Shown here in pieces: positions 3,984-34,396 of a DNA stretch of 64,000 nucleotides; positions within the stretch are counted from its first letter, which is position 1; each line of letters begins with the position of its first letter. The DNA lies in NCBI RefSeq assembly GCF_002222655.1, contig NZ_CP022423.1:2232001-2296000 (forward strand), given 5' to 3'. The notes under the pieces were generated by a model that ran no database searches, was not told the origin of the DNA, and saw only the letters and a list, made by a program, of their open reading frames with translations. A program made the translations under genes and the position numbers. The DNA comes from Vitreoscilla filiformis (lineage in GTDB: Bacteria; Pseudomonadota; Gammaproteobacteria; Burkholderiales; Burkholderiaceae_C).

Positions 3984-4032
3984 AGCTGATACCAAAAAGG
4001 CCACACCGACATGGCGGTGTTGGCCTTCGGTC

Positions 4033-4057: not shown

Positions 4058-4087
4058 CTGCCTGCTCGTCGAGTGGCTGCATAAAAA

Positions 4088-4105: not shown

Positions 4106-4136
4106 CTGTTATCGCGGCGGTGCGAGACGTATGCGC

Positions 4137-6445: not shown

Positions 6446-6579
6446 TTCGTCCGAAAAAACCTTTGTGTGACAAGCACTTGCAAGGGGGCTTGACAAAAAA
6501 TTTTCCGAACGACGAGCTGACTGCGAAAGCACATTTCATGCCAATGGGGTCTGGCTGGCGAGGCGCAGTCTAGCACACC
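6446..6579 (-). promoter_or_regulatory. CRISPR leader between array and cas2
   Basis: These 134 bp between the newest repeat and the cas2 stop codon are locally AT-rich (for example GACAAAAAATTTTCC) and contain no convincing gene. Position beside the adaptation genes and opposite the decayed trailer identifies the leader. The top-strand word GTCTGGCTGGC at 6549-6559 is an 11-bp copy of the repeat terminus, inverted relative to the array repeats. I could not fix a clear -35/-10 pair. Confidence 0.75.
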
Positions 6580-6867
6580 TCAGCGACCTTCTGGCAACCA
6601 CATGCCCTCCGGCACCAACGACCGGCCCAGCCGCACCACCGCATCCGGCCCCGAACACCGGTACGCCCGCAAATCATCATCCTCCGCCGCCAACGCCGCC
6701 AATTCATCCATCAAAATTTTCATCCCCTGCGCACTCTTGCGCACCTCAAATAAACTATATTGCAATGGAATCCCCACCCCCTTTAACCGCTTCAAAATTT
6801 TCGCAGAGCGGCGCGGATCATGAATATCATAACAAACCCACCACACCGCCACATCATGATCCGCCAT
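6580..6867 (-). CDS. cas2: CRISPR-associated protein Cas2
   Basis: The product has 95 residues, the usual size for Cas2. It begins with the ferredoxin-fold strand WWVCYDIHDPRR, including the conserved aspartate after the first strand, followed by ILKRLKGVGIPLQYSLFEV, the typical second strand of Cas2. Cas2 dimers bridge two Cas1 dimers in the spacer integrase complex. A GAGGGGG ribosome-binding site lies upstream, and the gene starts 12 bp after cas1 ends, so the two should be cotranscribed on the minus strand and run directly into the leader. Confidence 0.93.
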   Translation of the reverse strand: MADHDVAVWWVCYDIHDPRRSAKILKRLKGVGIPLQYSLFEVRKSAQGMKILMDELAALAAEDDDLRAYRCSGPDAVVRLGRSLVPEGMWLPEGR

Positions 6868-6879
6868 TTTAAAACCCCC

Positions 6880-7872: not shown

Positions 7873-7890
7873 CTCAAACCTCCCGCGTTT

Positions 7891-8190
7891 TTAATCAAAT
7901 CGATACACCGACGGCACATCGTGGGCCGCACCCACCGCCCGGCCACGCAACAGTGGCGTGCTGTGCGCGTCCAGCCGCAGCAACAAAAACTGATCTTCGT
8001 CACCGTCCAGCAACTCAACCACCACCGCCAGCAGCGCCCGCCGCTCCGCTGGTGTCAGCCAGATCACATGGGCCGAGCGCTGACCCAACTCCGCCGCATA
8101 CGCCTGCACGCGCTGCCAAATGCGCTGGCGCCGAGAGGTGTCGCTCACGTCATAGGCCGCCAGATAACCGGTTCGTTTGACTTCGCCCAT
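7891..8190 (-). CDS. Second Cas2-family protein
   Basis: The product has 99 residues. I chose the ATG at 8190 because it follows an AAGGGGGG ribosome-binding site; an upstream extension would only add arginine-rich residues of no recognisable kind. The start GYLAAYDVSDTSRRQRIWQRV matches the first strand and helix of Cas2, with the acidic residue in YDVSD. The middle, AHVIWLTPAERRALL, diverges from the other Cas2. It is the first gene of the Cas2-like / cas1 / cas2 operon, 18 bp before cas1. Whether it forms a heterodimer with Cas2, replaces it or regulates it is unknown. The 140 bp upstream are a divergent promoter region shared with recC. Confidence 0.75.
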   Translation of the reverse strand: MGEVKRTGYLAAYDVSDTSRRQRIWQRVQAYAAELGQRSAHVIWLTPAERRALLAVVVELLDGDEDQFLLLRLDAHSTPLLRGRAVGAAHDVPSVYRFD

Positions 8191-8330
8191 GGCCCCCCTT
8201 TGGTGTGTTGCGCACAGCCTGCCACGCCTCCACCCAGTCAGTGACAGACTGCAAGCTTGCAAGAGGCCATATTCGCCCGGACTGTGACAAAGTGCGCCCC
8301 ATTGCCCAGCCGGTTCACCGACCCATCACC

Positions 8331-19583: not shown

Positions 19584-20849
19584 TCATCCTGCGATGACAC
19601 GTTGCATCATGCTGATTTCTATGCCACCAAGGCCCGATCGTGCCGCTTCCTGGCGCCACTCCTTCACCGAAGAATCCACTTCCGCCAGAATTGCTTTGGC
19701 CTGATTGGTGCTCAACTGGTACAAATCCGCCTGAGCCAAGGCCATCGCGGCGTCGGGTTCTTGACTGACGCCATCCAACGTGAGTGCGTGGGCGTCCTTG
19801 TAAGGATTAGGGTTGACGTCGTAGGCTGGAGCCAATCGCCATCCTGTGGCCGTACGGATGAACCCATGGTTGCGCAAGTGATCGTCTCGATTGCCGATGC
19901 GGATGTTGAATAACACCCGGCGAAACAGTTGTTCCAGATCCGTTTTGATGTGCCCTTGAGCTCCGTGGTCGCAGAGGAACTCTGCGAGATCGAGGTAGCT
20001 GGCACCGGCTTGGCCGTCGGTGAACTCCAGTTGTGTCATGGCAGAAGCGAACATGCGCCTGTTGAAGCCGCTTCGATCAAAACGTGCTGCGCAGTAAGTA
20101 AGGTACCGGTCTGTCAGTTGAAGGCACTGGGCTTGGGGGACCCAAATCCCTGCGCGCTGTGCCAAGTTTCGGGTCACCCATTCCCAAGCGCCAACGTCGT
20201 AACGGTCTTCTTTTGCAGGAAATTTGGCGATCCACAAGCTGCCATCCATGGCGATGAAGTTCGCTTTGGGGCGAGCTCCCCCGAGTGAGGTTCCCGGCGC
20301 GATGAGCATCGCCAGCCAGCGCTCGTACTCCGGCAGGTTTTCGGCGCCCGCATCTTCGATGCGGCGACTGGCATGAGCCAATTGCCCCAGATCGGTGACA
20401 GGCGGGACGCCAAGGGTGCTGTTGTCTAAGAACGGGGTGTCATCTGCCAGACGCAAACGCAGCGCCCCCATGCGGGTTTGGTCGTGTACACCCAGCAGAA
20501 AATCGATGTCTTGCAGACGCCGAGGTTGGCGATTTTCTCGTCGGGCGGTCGCCACCTCGCGCCGTTCCATCAGCACACGCCCCCAGCGGTCGGGAGCTGA
20601 ATCCATGAAGACCCCGAAAGCCGAATTCGGGGCGGCTGGGTGCTGGGCTCCCGTGTACAAATCCAAGCGTGGATCCAGCATGAACGCGTGGGGGCTTTTC
20701 AGCCACGCACGGGTGTATTCGAAAGCGGCAGGCACATCAGTGCGGGTGCCATGTCGCCACAAGGTTCCGACTTGCGCTTGAACGCTCAATTCAGCCGCGT
20801 CCAAATGCACTTGGAACGACTCGCGAGCAGAAACTTTACGCGTCGCCAT
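19584..20849 (-). CDS. hipA: HipA-family serine/threonine kinase toxin
   Basis: The product has 421 residues from the ATG at 20849, which follows hipB with a 14-bp overlap. It has the HipA N-terminal domain (FGVFMDSAPDRWGRVLM), the glycine-rich loop TSLGGARPKANF, the catalytic loop GNRDDHLRNHGF and the metal-binding LAPAYDV motif. All residues expected for kinase activity are present. HipA kinases of this fold inactivate aminoacyl-tRNA synthetases and slow growth; the target here is unknown. Toxin and antitoxin appear cotranscribed with the antitoxin first, as in classical hipBA. The module lies between tRNA-Val and the disrupted membrane-protein gene. Confidence 0.88.
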   Translation of the reverse strand: MATRKVSARESFQVHLDAAELSVQAQVGTLWRHGTRTDVPAAFEYTRAWLKSPHAFMLDPRLDLYTGAQHPAAPNSAFGVFMDSAPDRWGRVLMERREVATARRENRQPRRLQDIDFLLGVHDQTRMGALRLRLADDTPFLDNSTLGVPPVTDLGQLAHASRRIEDAGAENLPEYERWLAMLIAPGTSLGGARPKANFIAMDGSLWIAKFPAKEDRYDVGAWEWVTRNLAQRAGIWVPQAQCLQLTDRYLTYCAARFDRSGFNRRMFASAMTQLEFTDGQAGASYLDLAEFLCDHGAQGHIKTDLEQLFRRVLFNIRIGNRDDHLRNHGFIRTATGWRLAPAYDVNPNPYKDAHALTLDGVSQEPDAAMALAQADLYQLSTNQAKAILAEVDSSVKEWRQEAARSGLGGIEISMMQRVIAG

Positions 20850-21165
20850 GCTGGCTCCCGGTTGGGTGACGCAGCGAGGGCTCCAGCTCAAGGTCTTGCA
20901 GCTTGCGGCCAAGCACATCGTCCTGAGCGAGCAAATCCAGATCACGGTCGAGGCCCAGCACGCGCAGTGCTCGCAGGTACGTGCCCAAAGCGATGGTGGG
21001 TTCTCCTTTTTCTAGGCGGTGCAGCGTGTCCCGAGAAATGGCCATGCGTTCAGCCATTTGCATCGCAGAAATTTTTCGCCGAAGCCGGGCCAAGCGCAGC
21101 CGGTGGCCAAGCGCAGCCATTTGTCGTTCAGCCGCAGGGAAGGGACGTTGAAATGATCGGCCCAT
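20836..21165 (-). CDS. hipB: HipB-like XRE-family antitoxin/repressor
   Basis: The product has 109 residues. The ATG at 21165 (MGRSFQRPF) is preferred to one at 21195 because the inverted-repeat operator lies immediately upstream of it. An XRE helix-turn-helix spans roughly residues 20-75: LGHRLRLARLRRKISAMQMAERMAISRDTLHRLEKGEP contains the typical A-x-x-x-x-S-R-x-T-L-x-R-x-E-x-G core. It should bind HipA and repress its own operon through the operator at 21169-21215. The 3' end overlaps the hipA start. Confidence 0.85.
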   Translation of the reverse strand: MGRSFQRPFPAAERQMAALGHRLRLARLRRKISAMQMAERMAISRDTLHRLEKGEPTIALGTYLRALRVLGLDRDLDLLAQDDVLGRKLQDLELEPSLRHPTGSQHGDA

Positions 21166-21168
21166 GAT

Positions 21169-21215
21169 GTCTGATATTCCATGCAAAAAAGGCACAGATG
21201 TCCAGAATATCAGAC
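21169..21215. promoter_or_regulatory. Candidate hipBA operator (perfect 11-bp inverted repeat)
   Basis: GTCTGATATTC at 21169-21179 and GAATATCAGAC at 21205-21215 are exact inverse copies, 25 bp apart, directly upstream of hipB. The centre-to-centre distance of 36 bp would suit two repressor dimers or a looped complex. Autoregulation is inferred from the hipBA paradigm. Confidence 0.7.
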
Positions 21216-21252: not shown

Positions 21253-21783
21253 TTACTTCTGCCAACTCACCGGCAAACCCTGGCGCCGAGCGGCGTAGTT
21301 GTTGCCGAGTTCGGTCAAGTTGGCGCCAAAGTCACTCAGGGCGCGTTGCTGCGGGTCGGGGCGCAGGGCGAACCAGTTGTCACGCAGGAAGTTGTGCAGC
21401 GGCCGGGTTTCCTCAAAAAAGTCGCTGGGGAATGTGATGAGCTGGAAGGCCGTTTCGAAGTCGATGGCCCCGAAGCGAATCAGCGTGCCCAATTCTTCGT
21501 AAAACTGGTGGATGGCACGAAAGTCCTTCAGCTCGGGGGCGGTGTACATCGCCGAACCGGTTTTGTAGCGGGTCAGCATCTCAGCGGGGTCAAACTTCTT
21601 GGTACGGTAGTCGGCCAGAAAGCGCTCCGTGACTTCCTCAATCTCGTGGTAACGCTTGAGAAACTCCCCGAAGGACGCATAGGACGTGACCTGCTTGACC
21701 CGTGCCGCCCGCGTCTCCGTCCGGGTGGCATGGGCAAATTCCAGCAGGCTCCACGCCGCGCCGCCCACGGTGGAAAGACCTGA
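21253..21783 (-). pseudogene. 3' part of a membrane-anchored protein gene split by the transposon
   Basis: This is the C-terminal ~175 codons of a gene whose 5' end lies at 32314-32402, beyond the transposon. The frame now runs on into transposon sequence to 21897, giving a hybrid open frame. The residual protein is mostly helical with acidic and aromatic residues (FLKRYHEIEEVTERFLADYR, then FEEL-like stretches); I do not recognise the family with confidence, and a DUF4760-like identity is only a guess. Removing the transposon and one copy of CCTGA restores exactly 205 codons. Position 21253 lies 38 bp from the hipBA operator, so the intact gene preceded hipBA on the same strand. Confidence 0.8.
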
Positions 21784-21811
21784 TGTCATTTTCAGAAGAC
21801 GACCGCACCAA
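21784..21811 (+). repeat. Left terminal inverted repeat of the tni transposon
   Basis: The 28 bases starting TGTCATTTTCAGAAGACGAC match the inverse complement of the right end except for one base at position 21 (C here, T at the right end). Target-site copy CCTGA adjoins it on the outside. Confidence 0.95.
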
Positions 21812-21995
21812 ACATCAGAAGCCGATTGCACTATGCCGGTGAAAGAAAAAAACTGGCCAAATTCAGTACGAGCTAAGCCTGCCTGTAGGGTCTCCACCGG
21901 CCAAGCCGAGTACCTCGGCCAGGATCGAGCTTGGCGTTGATTTCATTGGGTGCTGTCAGATAGGGCCTTGCTCTCATCGCACAACCTGATAAGAT

Positions 21996-22009
21996 AGTAA
22001 TAAATTACT
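21996..22009. promoter_or_regulatory. Candidate TetR operator upstream of the efflux cassette
   Basis: AGTAAT-AA-ATTACT is a perfect palindrome 10 bp before the regulator's first possible start. TetR-family repressors commonly bind such sites over their own promoter. The assignment is inference. Confidence 0.5.
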
Positions 22010-22019
22010 TTCTTTTGGA

Positions 22020-22634
22020 TTGGCGATGAGCGAACACCCTAAGCACCTTCCGGCTGATGAACGGCGAGCGGCCACCGTAGAGGCGGTGATCAACCTGGCG
22101 GCTGAGCAGAATCCCAGCGACATCACCACCACGGCGATCGCGCAGCGCATGGGCCTGACCCAAGGCGCGCTGTTCCGGCATTTCCCCACCAAGGATGCCA
22201 TTCTCGAAGCAGTGATGACGTGGGTAGCTGAGCGTCTTCTTTCCCGAGTAGACAAGGCGGCCCAGAACATCACTTCTCCTCTTGCCGCGCTGGAAGCGGT
22301 CTTCATGGCTCATATCGACTTCGTTTCCGAGCATCCAGGCGTGCCACGGATGCTCTTCGGAGAGTTGCAGCGGCCCGGAGAAACACTCCCTAAAAGGATG
22401 GTTCAGACCTTGATTCAGCGGTACGGAGAACGCTTGCGCCATCTGCTGGAGAGGGGCAAGGCGATAGGCGAGCTTAATGCCAGCCTCGATATCGAGGCTG
22501 CCTCGGTATCGTTCATCGGCTCCATCCAGGGCTTGGTGATGCAGTCGCTCATCGCGGGTGACGCCGCTCGCATCCGTCGCGATGCCTCTGGTGTTTTTGC
22601 AATCTATCGTCGTGGCATTGGGAGTGCGTCATGA
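22020..22634 (+). CDS. TetR/AcrR-family transcriptional regulator
   Basis: The product has 204 residues, or 202 if the second ATG at 22026 is used; neither has a strong ribosome-binding site. The N-terminal TetR helix-turn-helix is clear: ITTTAIAQRMGLTQGALFRHFPTKDAI at about 36-62. The C-terminal ligand domain is generic for the AcrR group. It is the first gene of the transposon's cargo, overlaps the next gene by ATGA, and probably represses the whole efflux cassette until a substrate binds. The inducer is unknown. Confidence 0.9.
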   Translation: MAMSEHPKHLPADERRAATVEAVINLAAEQNPSDITTTAIAQRMGLTQGALFRHFPTKDAILEAVMTWVAERLLSRVDKAAQNITSPLAALEAVFMAHIDFVSEHPGVPRMLFGELQRPGETLPKRMVQTLIQRYGERLRHLLERGKAIGELNASLDIEAASVSFIGSIQGLVMQSLIAGDAARIRRDASGVFAIYRRGIGSAS

Positions 22635-23783
22635 AATTTCCACGTCTACAACGCCGCACATTGGCCCTGGTCGCCGTCATCATTCCACTTCTACTGCTTT
22701 TCATCTATGTTGCTTTGCGTTCAGGGCCGTTGGCTCCTGTTGCAGCTACTGTCAGCACGGTAGAGTCCCGCTCCGTTGCCCCAGCATTAGCTGGTATAGG
22801 GACAGTGCAAGCGCGCTTTACTTACAAAATCGGCCCCACCGTTGCCGGGCGCGTCAAACGCTTGGATGTGCATGTCGGCGATACCGTTAAAGCAGGGCAA
22901 GTGCTCGGTGAAATGGATGCGGTGGACCTGGACGATCGCATCAGCGCTCAGCAGGCTGCAATCAAGAGTTCCGAAGCTGCACTTCGACAGGCTGCTGCCA
23001 AAGAAACTTTCGCGCAGACACAGGCCACACGCTATGAGCAGCTTTTATCGGTGCGTGGCACCAGCGAAGAAACGGTAGTCACCAAACGGCAAGAACTGGC
23101 TGTGGCGAGCGCGGCATTGGTCGCCTCGCGAGAAGATATCGCGCGTCTGCGCGCAGAGTTGGAAGCGCTCCGCGCTCAACGCGGAAACTTGAGGTTAGTG
23201 GCACCGGTTGCCGGACTGGTCGCAGCACGCGATGCAGACCCTGGCACCACGGTGGTGGCGGGGCAAGCGGTAATCGAAGTAATTGACACCGCAAGCCTGT
23301 GGGTTGATACACGCTTTGATCAAATCAGTGCCGAGGGACTGGCTACAGGGCTTCCAGCCAAGATTGTTCTGAGATCACGGCGATCTCAGGCTGTGGCGGG
23401 ACACGTATTGCGCATCGAGCCTCCGCGCCGATGCAGTGACTGAGGAAACCCTGGCAAAAATCGTTTTCAACGCGCCTCCAGTACCACTTCCACCATTGGG
23501 TGAGTTGGCGGAGGTGACTGTGCAACTGGGCGAATTGCCTGCCGCGCCGACCATCTCCAATGCCGCAATTCGGACAGTCGATGGAAAACGCGGTGTATGG
23601 AAGCTGGTTGAAGGAGGTTTGACTTTCACTCCGGTCGTGCTGGGCCGCTCCAGTCTTGATGGCCTGGTTCAGGTAGTTGAGGGCTTGAGCGTTGGCGATC
23701 AGGTCGTGCTCTACAGCGAAAAGACACTCAGCGCCAAGAGTCGGATTAACATCGTCGATCGTCTGCCAGGAGTCTCACCGTGA
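22631..23783 (+). pseudogene. HlyD/DevB-like membrane fusion protein, frameshifted
   Basis: The first 270 codons encode an N-terminal membrane anchor (ALVAVIIPLLLLFIYVAL), a lipoyl-like half motif (GPTVAGRVKRLDVHVGDTV), a coiled-coil hairpin and a second lipoyl half (RLVAPVAGLVAARDADPG). The frame then stops at 23443. The remainder (ADAVTEETLAKIVF onward to INIVDRLPG) continues in another frame to 23783. Deleting one C near 23420 would join the halves into a protein of about 383 residues. MFPs link an inner-membrane ABC pump to a TolC-type channel. Either the gene is broken or the read has an inserted base. Confidence 0.8.
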
Positions 23784-24984
23784 TCAGCCTGGCCGGACGC
23801 GACATCCTTCATGCCTGGGGTAAATTCATCTTTACGGGCATTGGCTTGGGCCTGTTGATTGGCGTCACGCTGACCATGGCGGGTGTGTATCGCGGCATGG
23901 TCCGATGACGGTAAGGTGTTTGCTGGACAACAGTGGTGCCAACTTGTGGGTGGTACAGAAAGACACCCTGGGCCCTTATGCCGAGTCTTCCAGCATCCCT
24001 GATGACCTGTGGCGCAGCATCCGCACTCTGCCGGGCGTGGCAGAGGCCGCCAATGTGACCTACCTGACCATGCAGGTCGGAAGAGGTGAAAAAGATGTTC
24101 GTGCCATGGTCGTGGGCATCGCGGCAGGCGAACCGGGAACATCAGGCTGGCCACCTCAATTGGTCGCGGGACGCCAGATTACGCGTGGCCACTATGAGGC
24201 GGTAGCGGACATCGCCACAGGGTTTCGGCTGGGCGATGAGGTGAAGATTCGCCGCAACCATTACACAGTCGTTGGCCTGACCCGCCGCATGGTTTCCTCC
24301 AGTGGCGATCCGATGGTGTTTATCCCACTCAAGGATGCGCAAGAAGCGCAATTCCTCAAAGACAACGATGCCATCCTGATGCAGCGTCGCCGCACCGAAG
24401 CCAATCCGGTTTTCAACCGCCCCGGCGTGCCCGGTCTGCTCGATGCTGTGATTGCCTCACAAACCAGCAACAACTCGGTGAATGCCGTGCTGGTTCGTAT
24501 CCAACCCGAATACTCTCCACAGGAGGTGGCCGAACCGATACGACGCTGGAAGCGGCTCACGGTTTATGACCGCGCACAGATGGAAGAGATTTTGGTAGGC
24601 AAACTCATTGCCACATCCGCCAAGCAAATCGCCATGTTTCTGGTGATTCTGGCTGTGGTCAGCGCCGCCATCGTGGCATTCATCATCTACACCCTGACCA
24701 TGGACAAAATTCGCGAAATCGCGGTGCTCAAGCTCATCGGCACACGCAACCGCACCATTGCGGGAATGATCTTGCAGCAGGCGTTGGTACTTGGGGTCAT
24801 CGGTTTTGTCGTTGGCAAGATCACGGCTACCTTCGCTGCACCCTTGTTTCCCAAATACGTATTGCTGATGCCCATCGATTCAATCTTGGGTTTCTTCGCG
24901 GTGATGGTTATTTGTGTGCTGGCCAGCGTTGTCGCCATCCGTATGGCACTGAAGGTCGATCCGGCCGAAGCGATTGGAGGCTGA
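23780..24984 (+). pseudogene. ABC transporter permease (DevC/MacB-like), frameshifted near the N-terminus
   Basis: A GTG at 23780, overlapping the MFP stop, begins ISLAGRDILHAWGKFIFTG, a typical FtsX-like permease start with its first membrane segment. That frame ends at 23908. The rest is intact from about 23905 to 24984, with a periplasmic domain, three C-terminal membrane segments (near IAMFLVILAVVSAAIVAFII and beyond) and FtsX-family motifs. Removing one C near 23902 and one T near 23917 would give the continuous reading MVDDGKVLLDNSGANLWVVQ, which looks like the natural family sequence. Hence two +1 changes within about 20 bp. Confidence 0.8.
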
Positions 24985-24986
24985 AC

Positions 24987-25697
24987 ATGACGGCAAAAGG
25001 CATTCACATCGAAGGCTTGAGCAAGCGTTACGGAGAGAGAGACACTGCGGTTCTCGCCTTGAAGAACGTGAACATGCAGGTTGCGCCGGGCGAGGTGGTT
25101 GGCCTGATCGGCCCTTCCGGTTCCGGCAAGAGCACGTTGCTCAAGTGCCTGGGAGCCGTGATTGACCCCACCGCCGGTCGCATGGTGCTGGGAAACGAGG
25201 TGATTTTCGACGATGAATGGAAAGTGCGCGACCTGCGGGCTTTGCGCCGCGACAAGATCGGTTTCGTGTTTCAAGCGCCGTACCTGATCCCGTTTCTCGA
25301 TGTCACCGATAACGTGGCGCTCTTGCCGATGCTCGCGGGTGCCGGCAATGACGATGCGCGAAAACGCGCGCTCGAACTGCTCACCGCTCTGGATGTGCAG
25401 CACCGCGCCAAGGCCATGCCGTCACAACTCTCAGGCGGAGAACAGCAACGCGTGGCTATTGCTCGCGGCTTGGTCAATCGACCACCAGTGATCCTGGCTG
25501 ATGAACCAACGGCACCGCTGGATTCGGTGCGTGCGATGTCTGTCATCCGCATCCTCAACGACATGGCTCGGCGTTTTGAAACCGCCGTCATCGTCGTCAC
25601 GCACGACGAAAAAATCATCCCGACGTTCAAGCGCATTTACCATATCCGCGATGGCGTCACTCACGAGGAAGCGGGTGAAGGGCGCAGTTTTGAATGA
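24987..25697 (+). CDS. ABC transporter ATP-binding protein (DevA/LolD-like)
   Basis: The product has 236 residues with a GGAGG ribosome-binding site before the ATG. All ABC ATPase motifs are intact: Walker A GPSGSGKST, Q-loop VFQAPYLIPF, signature LSGGEQQRVAIARGL, Walker B VILADEPTAPLDS and switch histidine VVTHD. The family is the MacB/LolD/DevA group that pairs with FtsX-like permeases, as found here upstream. It would power export with the MFP and the outer-membrane factor. Unlike its two upstream partners it has no frameshift. Confidence 0.92.
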   Translation: MTAKGIHIEGLSKRYGERDTAVLALKNVNMQVAPGEVVGLIGPSGSGKSTLLKCLGAVIDPTAGRMVLGNEVIFDDEWKVRDLRALRRDKIGFVFQAPYLIPFLDVTDNVALLPMLAGAGNDDARKRALELLTALDVQHRAKAMPSQLSGGEQQRVAIARGLVNRPPVILADEPTAPLDSVRAMSVIRILNDMARRFETAVIVVTHDEKIIPTFKRIYHIRDGVTHEEAGEGRSFE

Positions 25698-25742
25698 CTG
25701 CGCCACTCGTTATCGATGTCGCTGAAAAAAGAAGGGGGTCTC

Positions 25743-26204
25743 ATGAACAGCACTAAAAAACCGTTCCTGGTCATTTCCGCCGTGCTTTTCACGGTGATGA
25801 CCATATCAGCCACCCCTGTCGGCGCGCAGACGGAAAAACCCGCAAAGCCGATGGCACTACGCGGTGTGATGGACAAATTAGGCCGCGACATGCAGGCCAT
25901 TACAGGCGCAATTTCCAAGGAAGAGTGGGCGGTGGTTGTCGAGTTGGCTCCGAAGATTGCCAACCACGCAGAGCCTCCCGTCGCGGAAAAAATGCGCATT
26001 CTTGCTTGGCTCGGAACCGATGCTGGGAAGTTTCGCAGCCACGATGGGCAGACGCACGAATCTGCTACTGCTATGGGCGACGCAGCCAAGCGTGGTGATG
26101 GTCTAGCCGTTATCTCTGCTTTTTCGAAGGTACAACAAAGCTGCCTCGGTTGTCATCAGAGCTTCCGTAAGCCGTTCATGGAGCATTTTTATGAAAACCG
26201 ATGA
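25743..26204 (+). CDS. Periplasmic c-type cytochrome, cytochrome c'-like
   Basis: The product has 153 residues; an AAGGGGG ribosome-binding site precedes the ATG at 25743. A signal peptide (residues 1 to about 28, ending near VGAQ) directs export. The body is helical, and a single CLGCH haem-attachment motif lies near the C-terminus followed by QSFRKPF. A C-terminal CxxCH with a following FR is the cytochrome c' arrangement, which uses a four-helix bundle to bind NO or carry electrons. A cytochrome between the ATPase and outer-membrane factor genes of an efflux cassette is unusual. Function in this operon is unknown. Confidence 0.8.
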   Translation: MNSTKKPFLVISAVLFTVMTISATPVGAQTEKPAKPMALRGVMDKLGRDMQAITGAISKEEWAVVVELAPKIANHAEPPVAEKMRILAWLGTDAGKFRSHDGQTHESATAMGDAAKRGDGLAVISAFSKVQQSCLGCHQSFRKPFMEHFYENR

Positions 26205-27702
26205 CCTGACTTGCACAGGCCAATGCACGAAACCCAGTCAATGGCCGGCCAGAGCCCTGACATCTCTCGCACTTGTTGGTTTGTTGGCTGGTTGTGCGGT
26301 CGGGCCTGACTTCAAACGCCCCGAAGCGCCGACTACATCTAATTACACCGTTGCCACCATGCCAGCGCAAACCGCCTCGGCCGCAATCCTTTTGGGGGAG
26401 GTGCAAACCCTCCGGGTCGGTCGGGAGGTCAGTTTGGAATGGTGGCACAGCCTGGGGTCATCCAGACTCGATGCACTGATTGCACTGGCTTTACAAAACA
26501 GTCCAACGTTAGCCTCTGCAAAATCGACGCTGCTGCAGGCGCAGGAGCTTCATGCTGCGCAAGCGGGATCAACGCGCTACCCCCAAGTCGATGCGAATAT
26601 CGGTGCGCAACGCCAACGGATGAGCCCCAGCGGTCTCGGACTGGCCGGCGATGCACGTGAGTTCAGTCTTTACAACGCCAGCGTTGGCGTGCATTACCGC
26701 CTCGACTTGGCTGGAGGGAATCGTCGTGCGTTGGAAGCGCTGGCCGCTCGTGTGGACTACCGGAGCCATGAACTGGCGGGCGCGCAACTGACCCTTGCGG
26801 CAAATATCACCACCACCGCCATTGTCCGAGCAAAACTCGCGGGTCAGCTTGCGGCCACCAAAGCGATGGTCGAAGCACAGGACGAGCAGATCAATGTCAC
26901 CCGCAAGCGGGTGCGTCTTGGTCAAGCAGCACCGGACGAGCTGCTTGCACAGCAAACGCAGACCGAACAAACTCGTTCTGGACTACCCCTTTTGCTCAAG
27001 CAACTGCAACAAAGTGAGCATCTTCTGGCCACGCTTTCCGGCCAGGCCCCTGGTGACGCGAAGGTGCCCGATTTCACTTTGGCCGAGTTCAAACTGCCCA
27101 CCGAATTGCCTCTTGTGATGCCTTCTGATCTGGTGCGCAGACGGCCTGATATTCAGGCGGCAGAAGCATTGCTCCACGCGGCGAATGCCGAATATGGGGT
27201 GGCGATCGCCAAGCTGTATCCTCAAATCAACCTCAGTGCAAACCTTGGCTCGCAAGCACTCACAACCGGGGCTCTTTTTGGCAGCAACTCTGCTGTTTGG
27301 AGTGTGCTGGGGCAGTTGACCCAGCCACTATTCAATCCGGGACTACCCGCAGAAAAACGGGCATCGCTGGCAGCATTGGATGCCGCAGCGGCAAATTATC
27401 AGGGCGTTGTGCTCGACGCTCTGCGCAACGTGGCGGACACATTGAGCGCACTGGAGCACGATGCACAGGCATTGAGTTCACTCGCGCTTGCAGACTCAAC
27501 TGCACAGTCTTCCCTTGAATCCACTGGGCGTCAGTATGCGCTTGGCGCAGCCAGCTACACGCAATTGCTGATTGCAAGGCAGCAGGCTCAACAAAGTAGC
27601 ATTGCCTTGGTCGCAGCGCAGGCGCAACGGCTTGCTGATAGTGCCGCACTATTTCAGGCGATGGGTGGAGGTTATGATGGATTGAAGGTCAAGCCTTACT
27701 GA
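26191..27702 (+). CDS. Outer-membrane efflux lipoprotein (NodT/TolC family)
   Basis: The product has 503 residues. The lipobox LLAGCAVGPDFKRP near residue 35 and the GPDFKRP sequence after it are diagnostic of the NodT/OprM group. Two repeats of the outer-membrane efflux domain follow, with the family motif LVRRRPDIQAAEALLHAANAEYG cut here as VRRRPDIQAAE. It would form the outer-membrane channel for the MFP/ABC pump. It overlaps the cytochrome gene by 14 bp. Its stop region overlaps the tail of tniR on the opposite strand by 14 bp, so cargo and tni module are packed end to end. Confidence 0.92.
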   Translation: MKTDDLTCTGQCTKPSQWPARALTSLALVGLLAGCAVGPDFKRPEAPTTSNYTVATMPAQTASAAILLGEVQTLRVGREVSLEWWHSLGSSRLDALIALALQNSPTLASAKSTLLQAQELHAAQAGSTRYPQVDANIGAQRQRMSPSGLGLAGDAREFSLYNASVGVHYRLDLAGGNRRALEALAARVDYRSHELAGAQLTLAANITTTAIVRAKLAGQLAATKAMVEAQDEQINVTRKRVRLGQAAPDELLAQQTQTEQTRSGLPLLLKQLQQSEHLLATLSGQAPGDAKVPDFTLAEFKLPTELPLVMPSDLVRRRPDIQAAEALLHAANAEYGVAIAKLYPQINLSANLGSQALTTGALFGSNSAVWSVLGQLTQPLFNPGLPAEKRASLAALDAAAANYQGVVLDALRNVADTLSALEHDAQALSSLALADSTAQSSLESTGRQYALGAASYTQLLIARQQAQQSSIALVAAQAQRLADSAALFQAMGGGYDGLKVKPY

Positions 27703-28303
27703 GCAACTTCGTTCCGTCAGAACGCAACTGACCGGTGGGTGAAATATGCCGGTACAGGGTCTGCCGAGTAATTCCGAGTTCTTGGCACAAATCGCCAACC
27801 TTGGTTTCCGGCTGACCCATCGCCGCCATTGCCAGGCGCAACTTGGCCGCCGTCATCTTGAAAGGCCGACCGCCTTTGCGGCCGCGTGCCCGTGCCGACG
27901 CCAAACCCGCCACGGTGCGCTCGGCAATCAGCTCGCGCTCGAACTCGGCCAATGCCGCGAAGATGCCAAAGACCAGCTTGCCGGCGGCGGTCGTGGTGTC
28001 GATGGCCGCGCCATGCCCGGTCAGCACCTTGAGGCCGATGCCGCGTCCGGTCAGGTCGTGCACGGTGTTGATGAGGTGCCGCAGGTCGCGCCCGAGGCGA
28101 TCCAGTTTCCACACGGCCAGCGTGTCGCCTGGCCGTAGCGCCTTGAGGCAGCTTACCAGACCGGGGCGATCCTCGCGTTTGCCGGATGCTTGATCCTCGT
28201 AGAGATGGTCCGGATCAACGCCGGCAGCAATCAGCGCGTCGCGCTGCAAGTCGGTCGCTTGAGAGCCGTCCGCTTTCGATACCCGCATATAGCCGATCAA
28301 CAT
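27689..28303 (-). CDS. tniR: Serine resolvase TniR
   Basis: The product has 204 residues with the resolvase/invertase catalytic domain. MLIGYMRVSKADGSQ carries the nucleophile serine at position 9, followed by the LDRLGRD and EFERELIAERT blocks. A C-terminal helix-turn-helix contains LCQELGITRQTLYRH. In tni transposons TniR resolves the cointegrate formed by replicative transposition at the adjacent res site. The gene looks complete. The res region lies between its start and tniQ. Confidence 0.95.
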   Translation of the reverse strand: MLIGYMRVSKADGSQATDLQRDALIAAGVDPDHLYEDQASGKREDRPGLVSCLKALRPGDTLAVWKLDRLGRDLRHLINTVHDLTGRGIGLKVLTGHGAAIDTTTAAGKLVFGIFAALAEFERELIAERTVAGLASARARGRKGGRPFKMTAAKLRLAMAAMGQPETKVGDLCQELGITRQTLYRHISPTGQLRSDGTKLLSKA

Positions 28304-28311
28304 TTTGCACC

Positions 28312-28363
28312 TGTCACATATACGTTCGATTATGTGACAGTGTGAGCCAGAAAGCTCTGGCCG
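28312..28363. promoter_or_regulatory. Probable res site of the tni transposon
   Basis: The 60-bp gap between tniR and tniQ contains TGTCACATA (28312-28320) and its inverse TATGTGACA (28331-28339), with a further TGTCAC-type half site extending into the end of tniQ. Such paired sites are where the resolvase binds and crosses over. The position matches known Tn5053-type elements. Confidence 0.7.
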
Positions 28364-29581
28364 TCAAAATTTGTCACTTAACCCGTAATTTTGTCTAAGA
28401 CATGCAAAGGGTTCATCAGGCTCATAATGTGACAGAAATTCCGGAGGGATGCCTTCCTCCGCGAAGGTGGCGCGCAACTGTTCCAAGGAAGCCGGGTCGC
28501 GCCGACCATAGGAAGCCAACGCGAACAGCGAGCGTGCCGTCTCGGGGTTGTGCCGCGCTTCAATGATGGCCTCGTCGATGGCCTGGACTGCACGCTGCCA
28601 GTGATTGATGGGTTCTGGCTTCGGCGCTTTCGTCGGTAGGCCGCTGGTGAACCCGGTTTGGGGCTCGGACCAGAATAGCTTTGCCTGCTCGCCTGGCGGG
28701 CTTATGTCCCTCACCTCAATCAAGTTGATTGCCGTTGCCGCCGCCTCCAGCATCTGCAATCGTACTGCCGGGTTCAGGGTTTCATACGGTCGCCACAGAC
28801 TTTGCCCAGCACGCAGCGGATGCCCGCAGCTTTCCCAGACTTGGCGGAGATACCCCGCGCAGGTTCCACACGCGGAAAGTGGGGTGTTCAGCTCATCGAG
28901 CAGCGTGCGTAGCAGCCGAAACCACAATCCGGCGTGGATGCGCCGGCGCGGCAGCTCCACATACCCCATGGTCAGCGCCTGCCAGGTGCGCCGGTCCATC
29001 GCCGCAATCGGGTCGCTGGCGGTGCGTGGGGCGGCATCGGCATTCTCCCAGCCGAGAAAACGCCCTGGCACGCCCCAATAGGATTCCAGCCAGCAGCCAT
29101 GCAGCGGGCAGCTCAGCATCAGGGGCAGCTTCCACACGAGCAGTACGGCTTGGTTCTCCGGATCGTTCAGGCAGAGCGGACAGGCGCGGTGTATCGGCTG
29201 GCTGGGGAGCCAGGCACGCCAGCTCGTGATGGATCGCGTCTTACGGCGGAGTCTTGGCAGCAGCACCGAGAGCTGAAACGCATAGGTTTCCAATGCGTCT
29301 GGAATCTGATCATCAAGGCTGTCCAGTAGCCAAGGCACCCAGCCGGCGAAGCTCATACTGCGCAGCCGGTCCAGCTCGATGCCGCTCCGTTGGGAAAGCA
29401 TCGCCAGCAGCGAGAGTGGTGGCACGGTGTCTAGGTCATCGACGTGGCCGTGACCAAGATCGTGCTCCAGTAGGTCGGGCACCTCCATGTGATAGCAAAG
29501 GGCCACGCGGTTGAGCCATGAGGACAGCGCCTCGCCTTCTTTCGGGGCGGGATGCAGCGGCCAGCGTGGTGCCGGCTTCAC
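28364..29581 (-). CDS. tniQ: Transposition protein TniQ
   Basis: The product has 405 residues from the GTG at 29581, whose bases overlap the tniB stop (ATGTGA). Earlier in-frame starts would run into tniB. The N-terminal TniQ domain has WPLHPAPKEGEALSSWLNRVA near the start, and a zinc-finger-like set CPLCLND...CPLHGC follows. TniQ-family proteins help target-site selection; relatives are used in CRISPR-associated transposons. The gene looks intact. Confidence 0.93.
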   Translation of the reverse strand: MKPAPRWPLHPAPKEGEALSSWLNRVALCYHMEVPDLLEHDLGHGHVDDLDTVPPLSLLAMLSQRSGIELDRLRSMSFAGWVPWLLDSLDDQIPDALETYAFQLSVLLPRLRRKTRSITSWRAWLPSQPIHRACPLCLNDPENQAVLLVWKLPLMLSCPLHGCWLESYWGVPGRFLGWENADAAPRTASDPIAAMDRRTWQALTMGYVELPRRRIHAGLWFRLLRTLLDELNTPLSACGTCAGYLRQVWESCGHPLRAGQSLWRPYETLNPAVRLQMLEAAATAINLIEVRDISPPGEQAKLFWSEPQTGFTSGLPTKAPKPEPINHWQRAVQAIDEAIIEARHNPETARSLFALASYGRRDPASLEQLRATFAEEGIPPEFLSHYEPDEPFACLRQNYGLSDKF

Positions 29582-30486
29582 ATCAATTCCCGCTCGAACT
29601 GGCGTCGCCGCTCGCTGGGGCCGGTGTAATCGGCCATGCTGAGCGTGCGGTGGTTGATCGCTTCCTCGCCGCTCTCCACGGCGGCAATGGCCGCCGCCAT
29701 CAGCAGGTGCGCCAGCTCGCCGATGGTGCCCTCGCTGCGCGCGAGCAGGTAACGGGCCATGTCCGCCGTGGCAATCGGCGAGGATCGCCGCAGCGGGAGC
29801 GAGGCGGCGAAGCTGGCCAGCAGCGAACAGCAATCGTCGTTGTCCTCCCACACCGGCAGCATCATCGGCTCGAAGCGGTTTTCCAACTGGTCATCCGAAC
29901 GGATCGCCAGGTAGGCGTCGCGCGTGCCGACCCCGACCAGCGGGATGCGCAACTCGTTGCCGAGGAAACGCAGCAGGTTGAGAAATTCCCGACGGTTGAC
30001 GCTGTTGCCGGCCAGGACGTTGTGCAGCTCGTCGATGACCAGCATGCGCACCCCGACCTTGCGAAGCAGTGCCAGCGCCAGTTGCTCCATTTCCGGCAAC
30101 CGTGGGCGCGGACGCAGTGGCGCACCCATCGCGGCGAGCAGCGCGACATAGAAGCGCATCACCGACGGTTCGGACGGCATCTGCACGACCAGCACCGGGA
30201 TGTGTTCCTGGTCGGCGTCAGAACTGGCCGGATGCGTGCGCCGGAACTTTTCGATGATCATCGACTTGCCGTTGTTGGTCGGGCCAACCAGCAGCAAGTT
30301 GGGCATGCGTTGTTTGTTCGGCCACGCATACAGCGTTTCCAGCCTGTTCAACGCTTCGACCGCGCGGGGGTAGCCAATCCAGCGGTCGGCGCGGATACGC
30401 TGCACGCGCTCGTCCGCTGGCAGACGGGCCAGACCCTGCGCCGCCGGCAGCAGGTGAGACAGGTCGATAATGGGATATTCGTCCAC
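29578..30486 (-). CDS. tniB: Transposition ATPase TniB
   Basis: I place the start at the GTG at 30486 (reading VDEYPIIDLSHLL), giving 302 residues, the usual TniB length. It is an AAA+ ATPase related to TnsC and IstB: Walker A VGPTNNGKSMIIEKF, Walker B MLVIDELHNVL and the sensor segment LVGVGTRDAY. It would load on DNA and activate TniA. In this sequence the frame is artificially continuous with that of tniA because of an extra base at the end of tniA, so the two appear fused; I regard them as separate genes. Confidence 0.9.
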   Translation of the reverse strand: MDEYPIIDLSHLLPAAQGLARLPADERVQRIRADRWIGYPRAVEALNRLETLYAWPNKQRMPNLLLVGPTNNGKSMIIEKFRRTHPASSDADQEHIPVLVVQMPSEPSVMRFYVALLAAMGAPLRPRPRLPEMEQLALALLRKVGVRMLVIDELHNVLAGNSVNRREFLNLLRFLGNELRIPLVGVGTRDAYLAIRSDDQLENRFEPMMLPVWEDNDDCCSLLASFAASLPLRRSSPIATADMARYLLARSEGTIGELAHLLMAAAIAAVESGEEAINHRTLSMADYTGPSERRRQFERELM

Positions 30487-30488
30487 GG

Positions 30489-32172
30489 CTACCACTCCTC
30501 GATCTGGGTCGAACGGTTTGGCCGGCGGCAGGTTGTCGGCCTGCGGGTCGGTAATGTCCGTTCCCGGCGGAACGGGCTTGTCCGGCCGAGCGGATGCTTT
30601 GAGGTGTTGCCGACGATCCGCGTCACGCCGAGCCTTGCGTGTGGCCTTCTGCGCGGTGGTCACGATCTCGCGCATCTGGCCGATCATGCGGAACAGCACC
30701 GACTCATCCACCTGTTCGCGCCCTTGCTGCCGCAATTTCGCCAATGCTTGGCGTTGCTCCCAGAGGGTGACAGCCGGGTGCGACAAGGTACGGTAGGGGA
30801 TTTCCAAGGTTAGTGCTGACCCTCCGGTTCCAGCACCCAGATACGGCTGATGTCGCGCGGGTCGCGCCGGATCAGGAAAGAGGGCTGGCGGTCGCGCCGT
30901 GCGATCCAAGGTTTGAGCGCGTCGGCGTAGTAGTGGATGTGGTCGATGACGAAAGCCGGTGCGGGTCAGCGTGCGGCGGAGGATGGGCAGAAAATCGACC
31001 AGGAAAGCCGTGGCGCGGGTAACGACTGCTGGCACACCGATGCGCGCCACAGCCTCGGCCCAGCGCGCGGCCGGCGGCTGAAGCAGGCCGTTGTGCACGG
31101 AGCCGTGATAGGTGCCGACTGCCAGTGCGAGCCAGCGCTCCAGCTCGCGCAGTGTCAGGGCGGCCATCTTCTCGGAGTCGTACTCCCCGCGTTGGTCGGG
31201 ATTGGAGAAGGTCGTTCCAGGCAGTTCGTCGTGGATCATCTGCATCGCCGTGCCGATGATCCGCTCCACGATGCCACCGTAGTGCGGCTGCCCGAGCGGA
31301 CGATAGTCCAGCCGGATGCCATGCTGCTCGCAGCCCCGGCGCAGGGCCTCGCTCTTGAATTCGGCCGCGTTGTCCAGGTAGAGCAACATGGGCTTGCCGC
31401 TCATCGGCCAGTCCATTTCCACGTCCAACCCTTCCAGCCAAGGGCGCTTGTCGCAGGCGACATGCGCGAGGCAAAGGCCGACCGAGACGGCGGACGGCGC
31501 TTCCAACGTGACCACCATGCCGAGCACACAGCGGGTGAACACGTCGATGGCGATGGTGAGGTACGGACGGCCGATCGGTTGCCGGTCGCGCTCGTCCACC
31601 ACGATCAGGTCGATGACCGTGTGGTCGATCTGCACCTGCTCAAGCGGCGCAGTCACGGCGGGAGGCACGCCGCCGGCACCTTGGAGGTCTCGGGACGCAT
31701 CCTGGCCTTCCCGGCGGCGAGTGACTTTGCGCGGATCGAGGCCGGCGATCCGCAACGCCACAGTGTTGCGCGCCGGCACCCGCAGCTTCTGCGCTTTGCA
31801 AGCCTGCGCGACCTCGCGGTGGAACGCCGCCAGGCTGCGCTTCTGTTTGGTCAGAAACCGCTTTTGCAGCAGGTCGCGGATGATGCGTTCGATCGGCTCC
31901 GGCAAGCGGCCCTTACCTTTGCCGCCGCTCGACTGCCCAAGAACCAGGTCAGTGACCAGCCCCGAGCCTTGCCGGGCACGGCGGATCAGGATGTAGACCT
32001 GCCGCCGGGACAGACCCAGTACCTGGGCTGCCGCGTCGGCCGCTTCATGCCCTACCGTCTCCGACTGTGCCAGCGGCCCGATGATCTCCGCGCGACGGCG
32101 CGCACGCTCCCATGCCTGATCTGGCAGGGTGGCAACGCCGTGCTCGGTAATCGGTGTGGTATCGGTCGCCAT
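30489..32172 (-). pseudogene. tniA: Transposase TniA, with compensating frameshifts and a lost stop codon
   Basis: The ATG at 32172 follows a GAGGTGAGC ribosome-binding site and gives the family start MATDTTPITEHGVATLP. The DDE integrase core is readable: VQIDHTVIDLIVV, LYLDNAAEFKS and the final glutamate in GGIVERIIG. From about 30953 to 30812 the frame encodes unnatural RRRAQTLDRTARPP-type sequence, while the neighbouring frame gives a sensible continuation (VIDHIHYYADALKPWIARRD). This indicates one extra base near 30953 and one missing near 30812. A further extra base near 30506 removes the stop (the other frame would end QIEEW and TAG at 30489). About 50 residues are scrambled, so activity is unlikely unless these are read errors. 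Confidence 0.85.
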
Positions 32173-32285
32173 GCTCACCTCGCTTTGGTGCACACGAGTA
32201 TTGAGCATAGTCGAGATCGGTGCGGATGACTTCTGATATTACGCCGTCAGGAGTGGCCTGCACACTTGGCGTCACGCCCCGTCAG

Positions 32286-32313
32286 TTGGTGCAGTCGTCT
32301 TCTGAAAATGACA
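32286..32313 (-). repeat. Right terminal inverted repeat of the tni transposon
   Basis: Read on the minus strand, this begins TGTCATTTTCAGAAGACGAC and continues TGCACCAA, matching the left end at 27 of 28 positions. The outside neighbour is the second CCTGA copy. Confidence 0.95.
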
Positions 32314-32402
32314 CCTGAGATGACCCCCACCACAATGGCCAAGCGTGAGCCCAGCCGTTGCAGGTTGTTCATCAGGGGAGAGGATTCTTCGGTGTTGTTC
32401 AT
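32314..32402 (-). pseudogene. 5' part of the split membrane-anchored protein gene
   Basis: An ATG at 32402 opens MNNTEESSPLMNNLQRLGSR, then a hydrophobic helix LAIVVGVISG, where the transposon interrupts. The frame continues in the fragment ending at 21253 as LSTVGGAAWSLLEFA. Combined length without the transposon and one target copy is 615 nt, exactly 205 codons. The intact protein would be a 204-residue single-pass inner-membrane protein with a cytoplasmic or periplasmic helical domain. It lies 104 bp downstream of pabBC on the same strand; that 104-bp gap shows nothing else. Confidence 0.85.
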
Positions 32403-32506
32403 CTTGCGACTTGGGTGTCAAGGGTGGGTGAAAAGCGCCCATTGTGGGCGCCAGCTCCCTCTGCGCACGTCCTGGGAAATGCGCGCTTGACAGTCTTCGC
32501 CGTCGC

Positions 32507-34396
32507 TTAACCGATCACATCCGGGCACCAGCGCGCAGGCAGGGCGCCGCGCAAAGCATTGCTGACACGCAGGTCTTGCGCTTGGGCCAAATCCGCTCGG
32601 GTCAGGCGGCGTTCTTCAGCGGGGGGATGGGCCAGCAGTTCGGCACGCATCACCCCTGGCAGGGCGCCACGGCTCACCGGTGGGGTGTACCAACGGCCCG
32701 CCAGTTGCACCCACACCGTGCTGCGGCCTCCTTCGATCAGTTCATCGGCTTCATCGAAAAACAGCAGGTCGAACACGCCCAGGTGCTCGGCTTCGTGTAC
32801 CGCTGCGTCATAGTGCGCCCGCAAGGTGGTTTTGTGGGCCGACAGCGCATGCGCCCCCGGTAAGCGCAGGCGGGCCTGGCCCAGCCGCACCCGGCCATCG
32901 GGTGTCGGTGGAAGCGGTGGCAGCGGTGTGCAGGTGAGAGCGATCCGACCATCAAAAGCCAGCGTCAACCGCACGCGGCCCGTTTGGCCCACTGCTCGGC
33001 AAGCTGCGGCAGCGGTTTGGACACGCTGCCACAACCCAGTGGCATCCTCCGCCTCTCCCAAAGGCCAGCCCAGCACGTTGGCACTGTGTCGCAACCGTTC
33101 CAAGTGCCTGGCCCAGAGCACCACCTGGCCATCGGGCTCCACACGCAAGGTTTCAATCAGCATGAAACCCGGATCGCAAGCCCGCACGAAGCGCGTTTTC
33201 CAATGGGTTTCCTCCCATTCGGTGGCGCTCACGCTGTCCAGCACGATACCACCGCCCACACCCCAGCGCACCGGGCTGGGCGCGTGCGTCCAACCGGGGG
33301 CCGGTTCGGTGAGTGTCAGTGTGCGAATCGCCACGGACAGGCACAGGTCGGGCAGCCGCCCCGTAGCCGGTGCCTCGCCGGGGGCGTCCACCCAACCGAT
33401 GGCGCCGCAGTACAGGCCACGTGGTTCGGTTTCAAGCTGCTGGATCAAGCGCATGGTTTCGCGCTTGGGCGCCCCGGTGATCGAACCGCATGGGAACGTG
33501 GCCCGCAGCAAGGCCGGGACATCGACCGTCGGCAAAGGCCGGGCGGTGATGGTGGAAGTCATCTGAAACACCGTCGGCAGGGTCTGCACTTCGAACAATG
33601 CCGGTACCCGCACCGAGCCGGTTTCTGCGATGCGCCCCAGATCGTTGCGCAGCAAGTCCACGATCATGAGGTTTTCGGCGCGGTTTTTGGGGTCACGCGC
33701 CAGGGTTTGGGCTTGGGTGGCGTCCTGCTGCGGATCCGGCAGGCGTGGCGCTGTGCCCTTCATCGGCTGGGCTTCAATGTGACCCGCTTGCACCCGCACG
33801 AACAACTCAGGGGAGCAAGACAGCACCCAGCGCCGGTTCCCTGTTGCGTCGCGGTCGGGCAGGGCCACCAAGGCGCCAAACGCCACCGGCTGGGTGGCGC
33901 GCAAGCGGCGGTACAGCGCCACCGGCGGGCCCACCAACGTGCCGTTCCAGGGATAGGTGAAGTTCACCTGGTAGGTGCGCCCTTGGCGAATGGCTTCTTG
34001 AATCGCTTCGATCGCGTGGGCGTGCTGGTGGGGCGTCAGCGCCGGATGGGCGCCAACCACACCCGCTGGCGCAGGCTCGGGCCGACCCTCGCGCTCGGCC
34101 AGCCATTGCGCGACGCCGTCGGCATTCAATCGCACGCAGTGGCGAAACAGCAGCACCCGCAGCGCCGCTGGCGGGGCGGCGGCGGGCTCGTTGTTCAGCG
34201 GCAAGCCCCATTCGTAGTCGATCAACAGCAGGGCGTGCAGCCCGGCGCGCTGGTCGACTTCGACAGCACGCCAGACTTCACCCAACGTCGCCGGATCGGT
34301 ACAGCGATGTTCTCGCACCCAGCCGGTGTACAGGCGGCTGCGGGGTTTGGTGGCGGGGGCGAGGGCGTCGTCCAGCAGAGCGAAAACGTCGCTCAT
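32507..34396 (-). CDS. pabBC: Fused aminodeoxychorismate synthase component I / aminodeoxychorismate lyase
   Basis: The product has 629 residues from the ATG at 34396, which overlaps the dedA stop by ATGA. The N-terminal ~390 residues are the chorismate-binding PabB domain: CSPELFVRV, AQPMKGTAPR, NLMIVDLLRNDLGRIAETG and PCGSITGAPKRETMRLI. After MLIETLRVEPDG near residue 410 comes a PabC-type class IV PLP lyase with its lysine in the HKTTLRAHYD region. The fused enzyme would convert chorismate plus ammonia to p-aminobenzoate for folate. A PabA glutaminase must lie elsewhere. Confidence 0.92.
   Translation of the reverse strand: MSDVFALLDDALAPATKPRSRLYTGWVREHRCTDPATLGEVWRAVEVDQRAGLHALLLIDYEWGLPLNNEPAAAPPAALRVLLFRHCVRLNADGVAQWLAEREGRPEPAPAGVVGAHPALTPHQHAHAIEAIQEAIRQGRTYQVNFTYPWNGTLVGPPVALYRRLRATQPVAFGALVALPDRDATGNRRWVLSCSPELFVRVQAGHIEAQPMKGTAPRLPDPQQDATQAQTLARDPKNRAENLMIVDLLRNDLGRIAETGSVRVPALFEVQTLPTVFQMTSTITARPLPTVDVPALLRATFPCGSITGAPKRETMRLIQQLETEPRGLYCGAIGWVDAPGEAPATGRLPDLCLSVAIRTLTLTEPAPGWTHAPSPVRWGVGGGIVLDSVSATEWEETHWKTRFVRACDPGFMLIETLRVEPDGQVVLWARHLERLRHSANVLGWPLGEAEDATGLWQRVQTAAAACRAVGQTGRVRLTLAFDGRIALTCTPLPPLPPTPDGRVRLGQARLRLPGAHALSAHKTTLRAHYDAAVHEAEHLGVFDLLFFDEADELIEGGRSTVWVQLAGRWYTPPVSRGALPGVMRAELLAHPPAEERRLTRADLAQAQDLRVSNALRGALPARWCPDVIG

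Follow-up and report, generated by a model that had tools for sequence, protein, structure and literature searches.

Positions 21784 to 32313 of a 64,000-nucleotide stretch of the Vitreoscilla filiformis genome (GCF_002222655.1, contig NZ_CP022423.1, positions 2,232,001 to 2,296,000; hereafter the window, to which coordinates refer unless stated otherwise) very probably form a transposon of the Tn402/Tn5053 superfamily. Elements of this superfamily are known as tni elements or 'res-site hunters'. The transposon is most likely self-mobile, and its predicted passenger is a TetR-controlled, MacAB-like tripartite ATP-binding cassette (ABC) exporter. On the sequence evidence, it is a new cargo class of a known transposon superfamily. 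The initial annotation had proposed a Tn5053/Tn402-family transposon with an ABC efflux passenger in place of mercury resistance (mer) genes or an integron, and the ends, the tni module and the protein domains all support that proposal.

The element runs from 21784 (+) to 32313 (-), 10,530 bp in total. Its terminal inverted repeats (21784..21811 on the plus strand, cargo side; 32286..32313 on the minus strand, tniA side) match at 27 of 28 positions, the first 20 bases perfectly, and perfect copies of the target-site duplication CCTGA flank it (21779..21783 and 32314..32318). The ends, duplication and length given in the initial annotation were all reproduced. A 20-bp end probe with up to three mismatches found these two sites only in the window, with none expected from 100 shuffles, and a chance origin of the ends was rejected. 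The right 25-bp end is identical to one end of Tn402, of the pSB102 and pMCBF6 elements, and of an element in a Chromobacterium violaceum plasmid; compared with the tniA-side end of Tn402 (R751), the right end matches at 25 of 25 positions and the left end at 24 of 25. A search of the genome (3.79 Mb, three contigs) found three copies of the element: the one in the window, a second chromosomal copy (C1:1819843-1830370, inverted, 10,528 bp) and a plasmid copy (contig C3 of 40,016 bp, 22549-33071, 10,523 bp). Counting relatives in other genera, 5-bp duplications accompany three of five two-ended copies, namely CCTGA (window), GCTCT (second chromosomal copy, perfect) and GGACT (Vogesella). The account of tni elements in PMC7765201 likewise gives tniABQ-res-tniR, 25-bp ends and 5-bp repeats.

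Genes were identified from open reading frames (ORFs) and Pfam/NCBIfam domain searches, with TniA assigned by comparison with known elements. The tni module lies on the minus strand in the order tniA-tniB-tniQ-tniR: the transposase gene tniA (30489..32172), the ATPase gene tniB (29578..30486, PF05621), tniQ (28364..29581, PF06527) and the serine resolvase gene tniR (27689..28303, PF00239), whose 3' end overlaps that of the last cargo gene. The module is intact in the plasmid copy, where TniR, TniQ, TniB and TniA have 204, 405, about 302 and 559 amino acids (aa), and interrupted at tniA/tniB in the window copy. Its DNA is 88.4% identical to that of Tn402 of R751, 89.2% and 89.1% to that of the mer elements of pSB102 and pMCBF6, and 92.9% to that of the C. 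violaceum element. Protein identities to the known Tn402 and mer elements are 87–95% (TniR), 92–94% (TniQ), 96% (TniB) and 90–93% (TniA). The initial annotation had called the module the standard one, and all four genes are present. In the plasmid copy, a 540-codon frame lies antisense to tniA (L012, 17366-18988, +); an antirestriction gene, ardD, is described antisense within tniA of Tn5053 in PMC3533173.

The passenger is of another kind than those of the named families. Among the ten proteins of the element, Pfam and NCBIfam searches found no mer genes and no integrase (attI1 was not searched for), and neither tnpA (E 1e-10) nor a Tn21-type end (two mismatches of 17) was found in the plasmid copy or its fetched flanks. 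Tn402 shares the tni gene order and the tniA-side end but carries intI1 and gene cassettes, where the present element has a six-gene ABC exporter. The mer transposons of pSB102 and pMCBF6 share the tni module and the position of the passenger between the other end and tniR; they differ in carrying tniM beside tniR, which was not noticed here, no specific tniM search having been made. The tni families named in PMC7765201 are mer (Tn5053), integron (Tn402) and, as a third, Tn6048, a multi-metal response transposon that offers a precedent for cargo that is neither mer nor integron. Compared by gene list rather than sequence, the mmf membrane and two-component genes given for Tn6048 in PMC4914505 differ from the genes described below. 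No named tni transposon with this cargo turned up in searches of an open-access library of papers, a point on which the initial annotation had made its claim depend. Another tni element, of about 6.9 kb, was seen in the C. violaceum plasmid NZ_CP069443.1 (L010, 5796-12656); its sole recognised cargo is a gene for 646 aa with a borderline match to the restriction-endonuclease domain Mrr_cat and no PADLOC match.

The six cargo genes are co-directional, on the plus strand, and overlapping. They encode a TetR/AcrR-family regulator (tetR, 22026..22634, PF00440 above gathering score), a membrane-fusion protein (MFP) or periplasmic adaptor (22631..23783, HlyD_D23 and RND_mfp above cut-offs for the first piece), an FtsX/MacB-type ABC permease (23780..24984, PF02687 and PF12704 above gathering score for the main piece), an ABC ATPase with a LolD/MacB-like nucleotide-binding domain as a separate protein (24987..25697, PF00005), a cytochrome c'-like protein with a CxxCH motif (25743..26204, PF01322 above gathering score) and a NodT-type outer-membrane efflux channel (26191..27702, TIGR01845 at 344 bits against a cut-off of 210). 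This cargo list had been drawn up in the initial annotation and was borne out by the domain searches. All genes are open in the plasmid copy, with products of 204 aa from TTG or 202 from ATG (TetR), 383 (MFP), 400 (permease), 236 (ATPase), 153 (cytochrome) and 503 aa (NodT). The cytochrome has a signal-peptide-like N-terminus, judged by eye, and a weak match to solved cytochromes c'.

A near-palindromic site, AAGATAGTAATnnATTACTnnCTT, the presumed TetR operator, lies at 21991..22014. We scanned 88 loci with 61 distinct upstream sequences, and the site was found, with at most three mismatches, 5–12 bp upstream of tetR in 79 of the 84 related loci with a TetR homologue; by this rule it was absent in L040, L065, L068, L117 and L119. 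Across 3.02 million strand-bases it gave 162 strand-counts, 158 of which the 79 near-palindromic sites would account for, and it accompanies tetR in tni, Tn21-type and other contexts. In two related genomes (L035 and L036), relatives of tetR (about 73%) and of the cytochrome (67–69%) flank a YbhFSR-like exporter cluster, named partly by eye, with its own NodT-type channel; L037 holds relatives of tetR, NodT and the cytochrome only.

The distribution of the element and of its cargo was assessed by several searches. Among the 40 megablast matches listed, the Comamonas C11 plasmid alone covers the cargo (64% of the element, 95.3% identity), and there the remaining tni sequence is absent and an IS3-family gene follows. 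A more sensitive search yielded 232 records with cargo similarity, among them 45 plasmid records that contain 80% or more of the block. Identity at the best place was 95–99% in one of the 232 records, 90–95% in two, 80–90% in seven and 60–80% in 222; three of them were opened (C11, Citrobacter CFNIH3 and Pelobacter). An adaptor-profile scan of GTDB species genomes confirmed 256 loci, and the best 80 were kept. Within 300 bp upstream of tetR, five of these 80 had a tni end (up to two mismatches), 22 had a Tn21-type end (up to two mismatches of 17) and 53 had neither, the last group taking in Tn21-type copies whose left end was not seen.

The two-ended tni version occurs in three genera, counting that of the window: versions of 10,521 bp are present in Chitinilyticum piscinae and Vogesella aquatica, at 93.3% and 93.2% identity to the plasmid copy. 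Parts containing the left end were found in Giesbergeria anulus, Paenacidovorax caeni and a Comamonadaceae metagenome-assembled genome (MAG). In a sample of 399 genomes of the order, some match was detected in 19, and the whole left end with the tetR start in the element's own genome only. Ideonella benzenivorans B7, in the same genus as the genome of the window, has 5.7 kb of the cargo at 99.8% identity, with no ends and no tni in the 20 kb fetched, adjoining what by eye is insertion sequence (IS)-like DNA. In a Betaproteobacteria MAG (L047), cargo of about 90% identity shows similarity extending into the tniR 3' end, and no tni end was found.

The same block also lies in Tn21-type transposons. 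On the Pelobacter propionicus plasmid pPRO2, the six cargo genes, tnpR and tnpA are enclosed by a pair of Tn21-type ends separated by 9,485 bp, a spacing that recurs in L070, L086, L088, L092 and L095. These transposons, known from pPRO2 and enterobacterial plasmids, share the six genes in order and the operator-like site with the tni version; they differ in having tnpA/tnpR and Tn21-type ends, and their pump proteins are 64–89% identical to the tni ones. The idea that the cargo is private to tni elements was thus rejected, as the block sits both in Tn21-type transposons and in loci with neither end. Taken literally, the block in the same order without tni ends (in I. benzenivorans, Tn21-type and other loci) is the very pattern that the initial annotation had named as contrary to its reading. 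The end-less copies do not undo the tni finding, because two-ended tni versions exist in three genera; together with the Tn21-type loci, they suggest that the cargo block is a mobile unit of its own.

In its predicted parts, the cargo is a tripartite ABC exporter in the broad sense, with adaptor, FtsX-type permease, ABC ATPase and outer-membrane channel in one row. The adaptor profile matched the RND adaptor 6vej best (E 1.4e-25) and MacA next (E 5.8e-21), and the permease matched MacB weakly (E 6e-4). MacAB-TolC has the same four components; it differs in that its ATPase is fused to the permease, whereas here the ATPase is separate, a NodT channel and a cytochrome c' are encoded alongside, and the equivalog cut-offs are not reached. 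The whole fits a TetR-controlled, MacAB-like exporter with a cytochrome c'. A cytochrome with at least 45% identity is encoded in 45 of the 80 loci (all six genes in 35), and in L047 its slot is filled by a 173-aa protein without a Pfam match (13061-13582), so the cytochrome looks like an accessory part, at a guess a dispensable redox or haem partner.

The cargo may be a resistance or tolerance determinant. A clearly less probable view takes the pump for an exporter of the housekeeping type that serves a cell product (lipid, siderophore or peptide) and that spread by hitchhiking or through a metabolic advantage. The top-scoring models were LolD, DevA and their relatives for the ATPase and DevC for the permease, all of them below cut-off; 53 of the 80 kept loci have neither transposon end near tetR, and a few end-less loci have PepSY/TonB-receptor-like neighbours, judged by eye only. 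However, TetR and its conserved operator-like site suggest inducible control, and selection for tolerance better fits a block that is carried by two kinds of transposon and is present to 80% or more in 45 plasmid records. Neighbouring genes gave no clue to the substrate in 48 loci without a recognised transposon, where the commonest non-cargo ORF family occurred in seven; the frequent neighbour families resemble, in our view, antisense frames. An anti-phage function was set aside: PADLOC, run on four of the six cargo proteins, matched only the ATPase, and that match was taken as generic.

Comparison of related elements points to an exchange of modules beside the resolvase gene. Between tniR and tniQ lies a 28-bp palindrome, TGTCACATATACGTTCGATTATGTGACA, the presumed res crossover subsite (positions 6521-6548 in the element comparisons, 28312..28339 in the window). 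The Chitinilyticum and Vogesella elements differ at four positions in 1-6550 and at 265 after it, and the Chitinilyticum and Comamonas C11 elements at five positions up to 6550 and then at 32 in the remaining 192 bp. In each pair the change comes at position 6551, which is 3 bp past the palindrome; in two comparisons, then, a near-identical block of left end, cargo and tniR adjoins tniQ sequence that has diverged. Between the plasmid copy and the Vogesella element, synonymous divergence (dS) is 0.03–0.19 in the cargo and 0.41–0.45 in tni, and the ratio of nonsynonymous to synonymous divergence (dN/dS) in the cargo is 0.02–0.34. The comparison covered nine of the ten genes, TniQ being left out for its early frame break in the Vogesella copy. 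By these measures the cargo is more recent than the separation of the backbones, and purifying selection acts on it.

The position of the switch, 3 bp past the presumed res palindrome, suggests that cargo was exchanged by TniR at res; that resolvases shuffle transposon modules is an older idea. Ordinary homologous recombination in a conserved stretch could also have placed a boundary near res, and in two further relatives divergence from the Chitinilyticum element begins inside tniR, which a resolvase would not bring about. Against this, the switch falls on one and the same base for each of two distinct partners of the Chitinilyticum element, and we consider homologous recombination the explanation with the lower odds, at well under half.

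The insertion sites bear on mobility. PMC7765201 describes tni elements as inserting at res, with the IRo end nearest the resolvase gene; we read IRo as the cargo-side end. In the plasmid copy, a resolvase gene (PF00239) starts 68 bp from the cargo-side end. The distance to a recombinase gene is 69 bp for the copy on the Comamonas sp. C11 plasmid, and that to a tnpR match about 26 bp for the Chitinilyticum copy. At least 80% of the 850-bp left flank of the C3 copy is matched in 20 plasmid records, four of which were opened. The site is uninterrupted in pAER-1351; a tni-type end begins at the same base as in the C3 copy in pEkFL23_IncU, and 2 bp further in pRSB105 (Tn402-type tniA, sul1) and pGES5 (class 1 integron, blaGES-5). 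Class 1 integron/tni elements thus occupy the C3 insertion locus in three of the four opened related plasmids. Both chromosomal insertions lie within ORFs, and their joined flanks give stop-to-stop frames of 209 (window) and 446 codons. For the window insertion, the left flank had no match in 15 other genomes of the genus and the right flank weak partial matches only, in three of the 15; evidence for the empty site therefore comes from the joined flanks. About 0.6 kb left of this insertion lies a gene for a HipA-like kinase with an overlapping helix-turn-helix gene, a HipBA-like pair (19584-21195, minus strand).

Several observations weigh against a self-mobile transposon with a working MacAB-like exporter. 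With the MacA model, the first piece of the interrupted MFP gene in the window reached 73.8 bits (cut-off 342), the ATPase scored 175 against a MacB cut-off of 966, and a simple scan found no sigma-70 promoter. Placement within 70 bp of a resolvase gene, cargo side nearest, holds for three of nine placements (own plasmid, C11 plasmid and Chitinilyticum); no adjacent resolvase gene was seen for the other six, the flanks of both chromosomal copies not having been searched for one. The flanks of the plasmid copy share only 4 bp (TTTA), with no perfect 5-bp duplication, and the Chitinilyticum copy has no target duplication. The NodT frame of the Chitinilyticum copy stops early, and the tniQ frame of the Vogesella aquatica copy breaks about 21 codons after its start. 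In the window copy, the MFP gene, the permease gene and the tniA/tniB region are interrupted by insertions, and the copy may be dead. The gene content given in the initial annotation stands, but its MFP, permease and tniA/tniB genes are not single frames in the window copy, where tniA and tniB are fused by chance into one 876-codon frame.

Relative to the plasmid copy, there are seven single-base insertions in the window copy and five in the second chromosomal copy (12 in total, one aligner-drawn mismatch with a 2-base gap being counted as two single-base insertions). Each repeats a neighbouring base, none is private to the plasmid copy, and there is no other substitution. If these were real mutations, the window would hold a decaying transposon with a broken pump, as its three interrupted regions, the further insertions in the second copy and the one broken frame in each of two relatives (Chitinilyticum and Vogesella) might indicate. 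We regard this as unlikely, since differences made up of insertions alone, each echoing its neighbour, are the pattern of uncorrected long-read errors in repeats. With the plasmid copy intact, recent spread of three near-identical copies plus residual assembly error in the repeats is the likely, if unproven, reading.

How the exporter reached both transposon types was examined with a quick-method tree of adaptor and permease (83 of 84 rows kept by a coverage filter, midpoint root, support from the Shimodaira–Hasegawa-like approximate likelihood ratio test, SH-aLRT, only). A branch with SH-aLRT 100 divides the tni copies from the Tn21-type ones, and both sets have end-less copies around them; we infer that the two captured the cargo separately. 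That a tni element inserted beside a Tn21-type efflux transposon and took the cargo directly from it is very improbable and disfavoured by the quick tree: two Tn21-type copies do have a tni end downstream of the NodT gene, at 18 bp in L080 and at 41 bp in L099, but the SH-aLRT 100 branch separates the pump proteins and the cargo DNA differs by about 29%. In L099 (Vogesella urethralis, 6623-12685), the tni end lies inside a Tn21-type efflux transposon and is followed by genes for LysR, a trypsin/PDZ protease, an M48 peptidase and PsiE.

In the proposed mechanism, TniABQ would transpose the element replicatively, with a preference for res sites, and TniR would resolve the cointegrate. The TetR repressor would sit on the palindrome upstream of its gene until a toxicant bound and released it, and derepression would give one transcript for the repressor, adaptor, permease, ATPase, cytochrome c' and outer-membrane channel. 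Powered by ATP hydrolysis, the pump would then expel its substrate from the periplasm or inner membrane by way of adaptor and channel, in the manner of MacAB-TolC. The block of left end, cargo and tniR would be a portable module, which recombination at res could join to another tniQBA module.

We lean, by a modest margin over even chances, towards an open-ended tni cargo slot in which left end, cargo and tniR move between elements as one unit, cut at res by the resolvase that the element itself encodes. The exporter would then be a stand-alone mobile cassette that tni and Tn21-type transposons acquired independently, and would add a fourth class of cargo to mer, integrons and Tn6048. As predicted here, the finding adds a complete efflux operon to the cargo of the group of transposons from which class 1 integrons arose, and places that operon at a plasmid site that hosts class 1 integrons elsewhere. 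Exchange at res would be a concrete, testable route by which such transposons may swap passengers. Enterobacterales plasmids already carry the pump on a Tn21-type transposon, which makes it worthwhile to learn what the pump exports.

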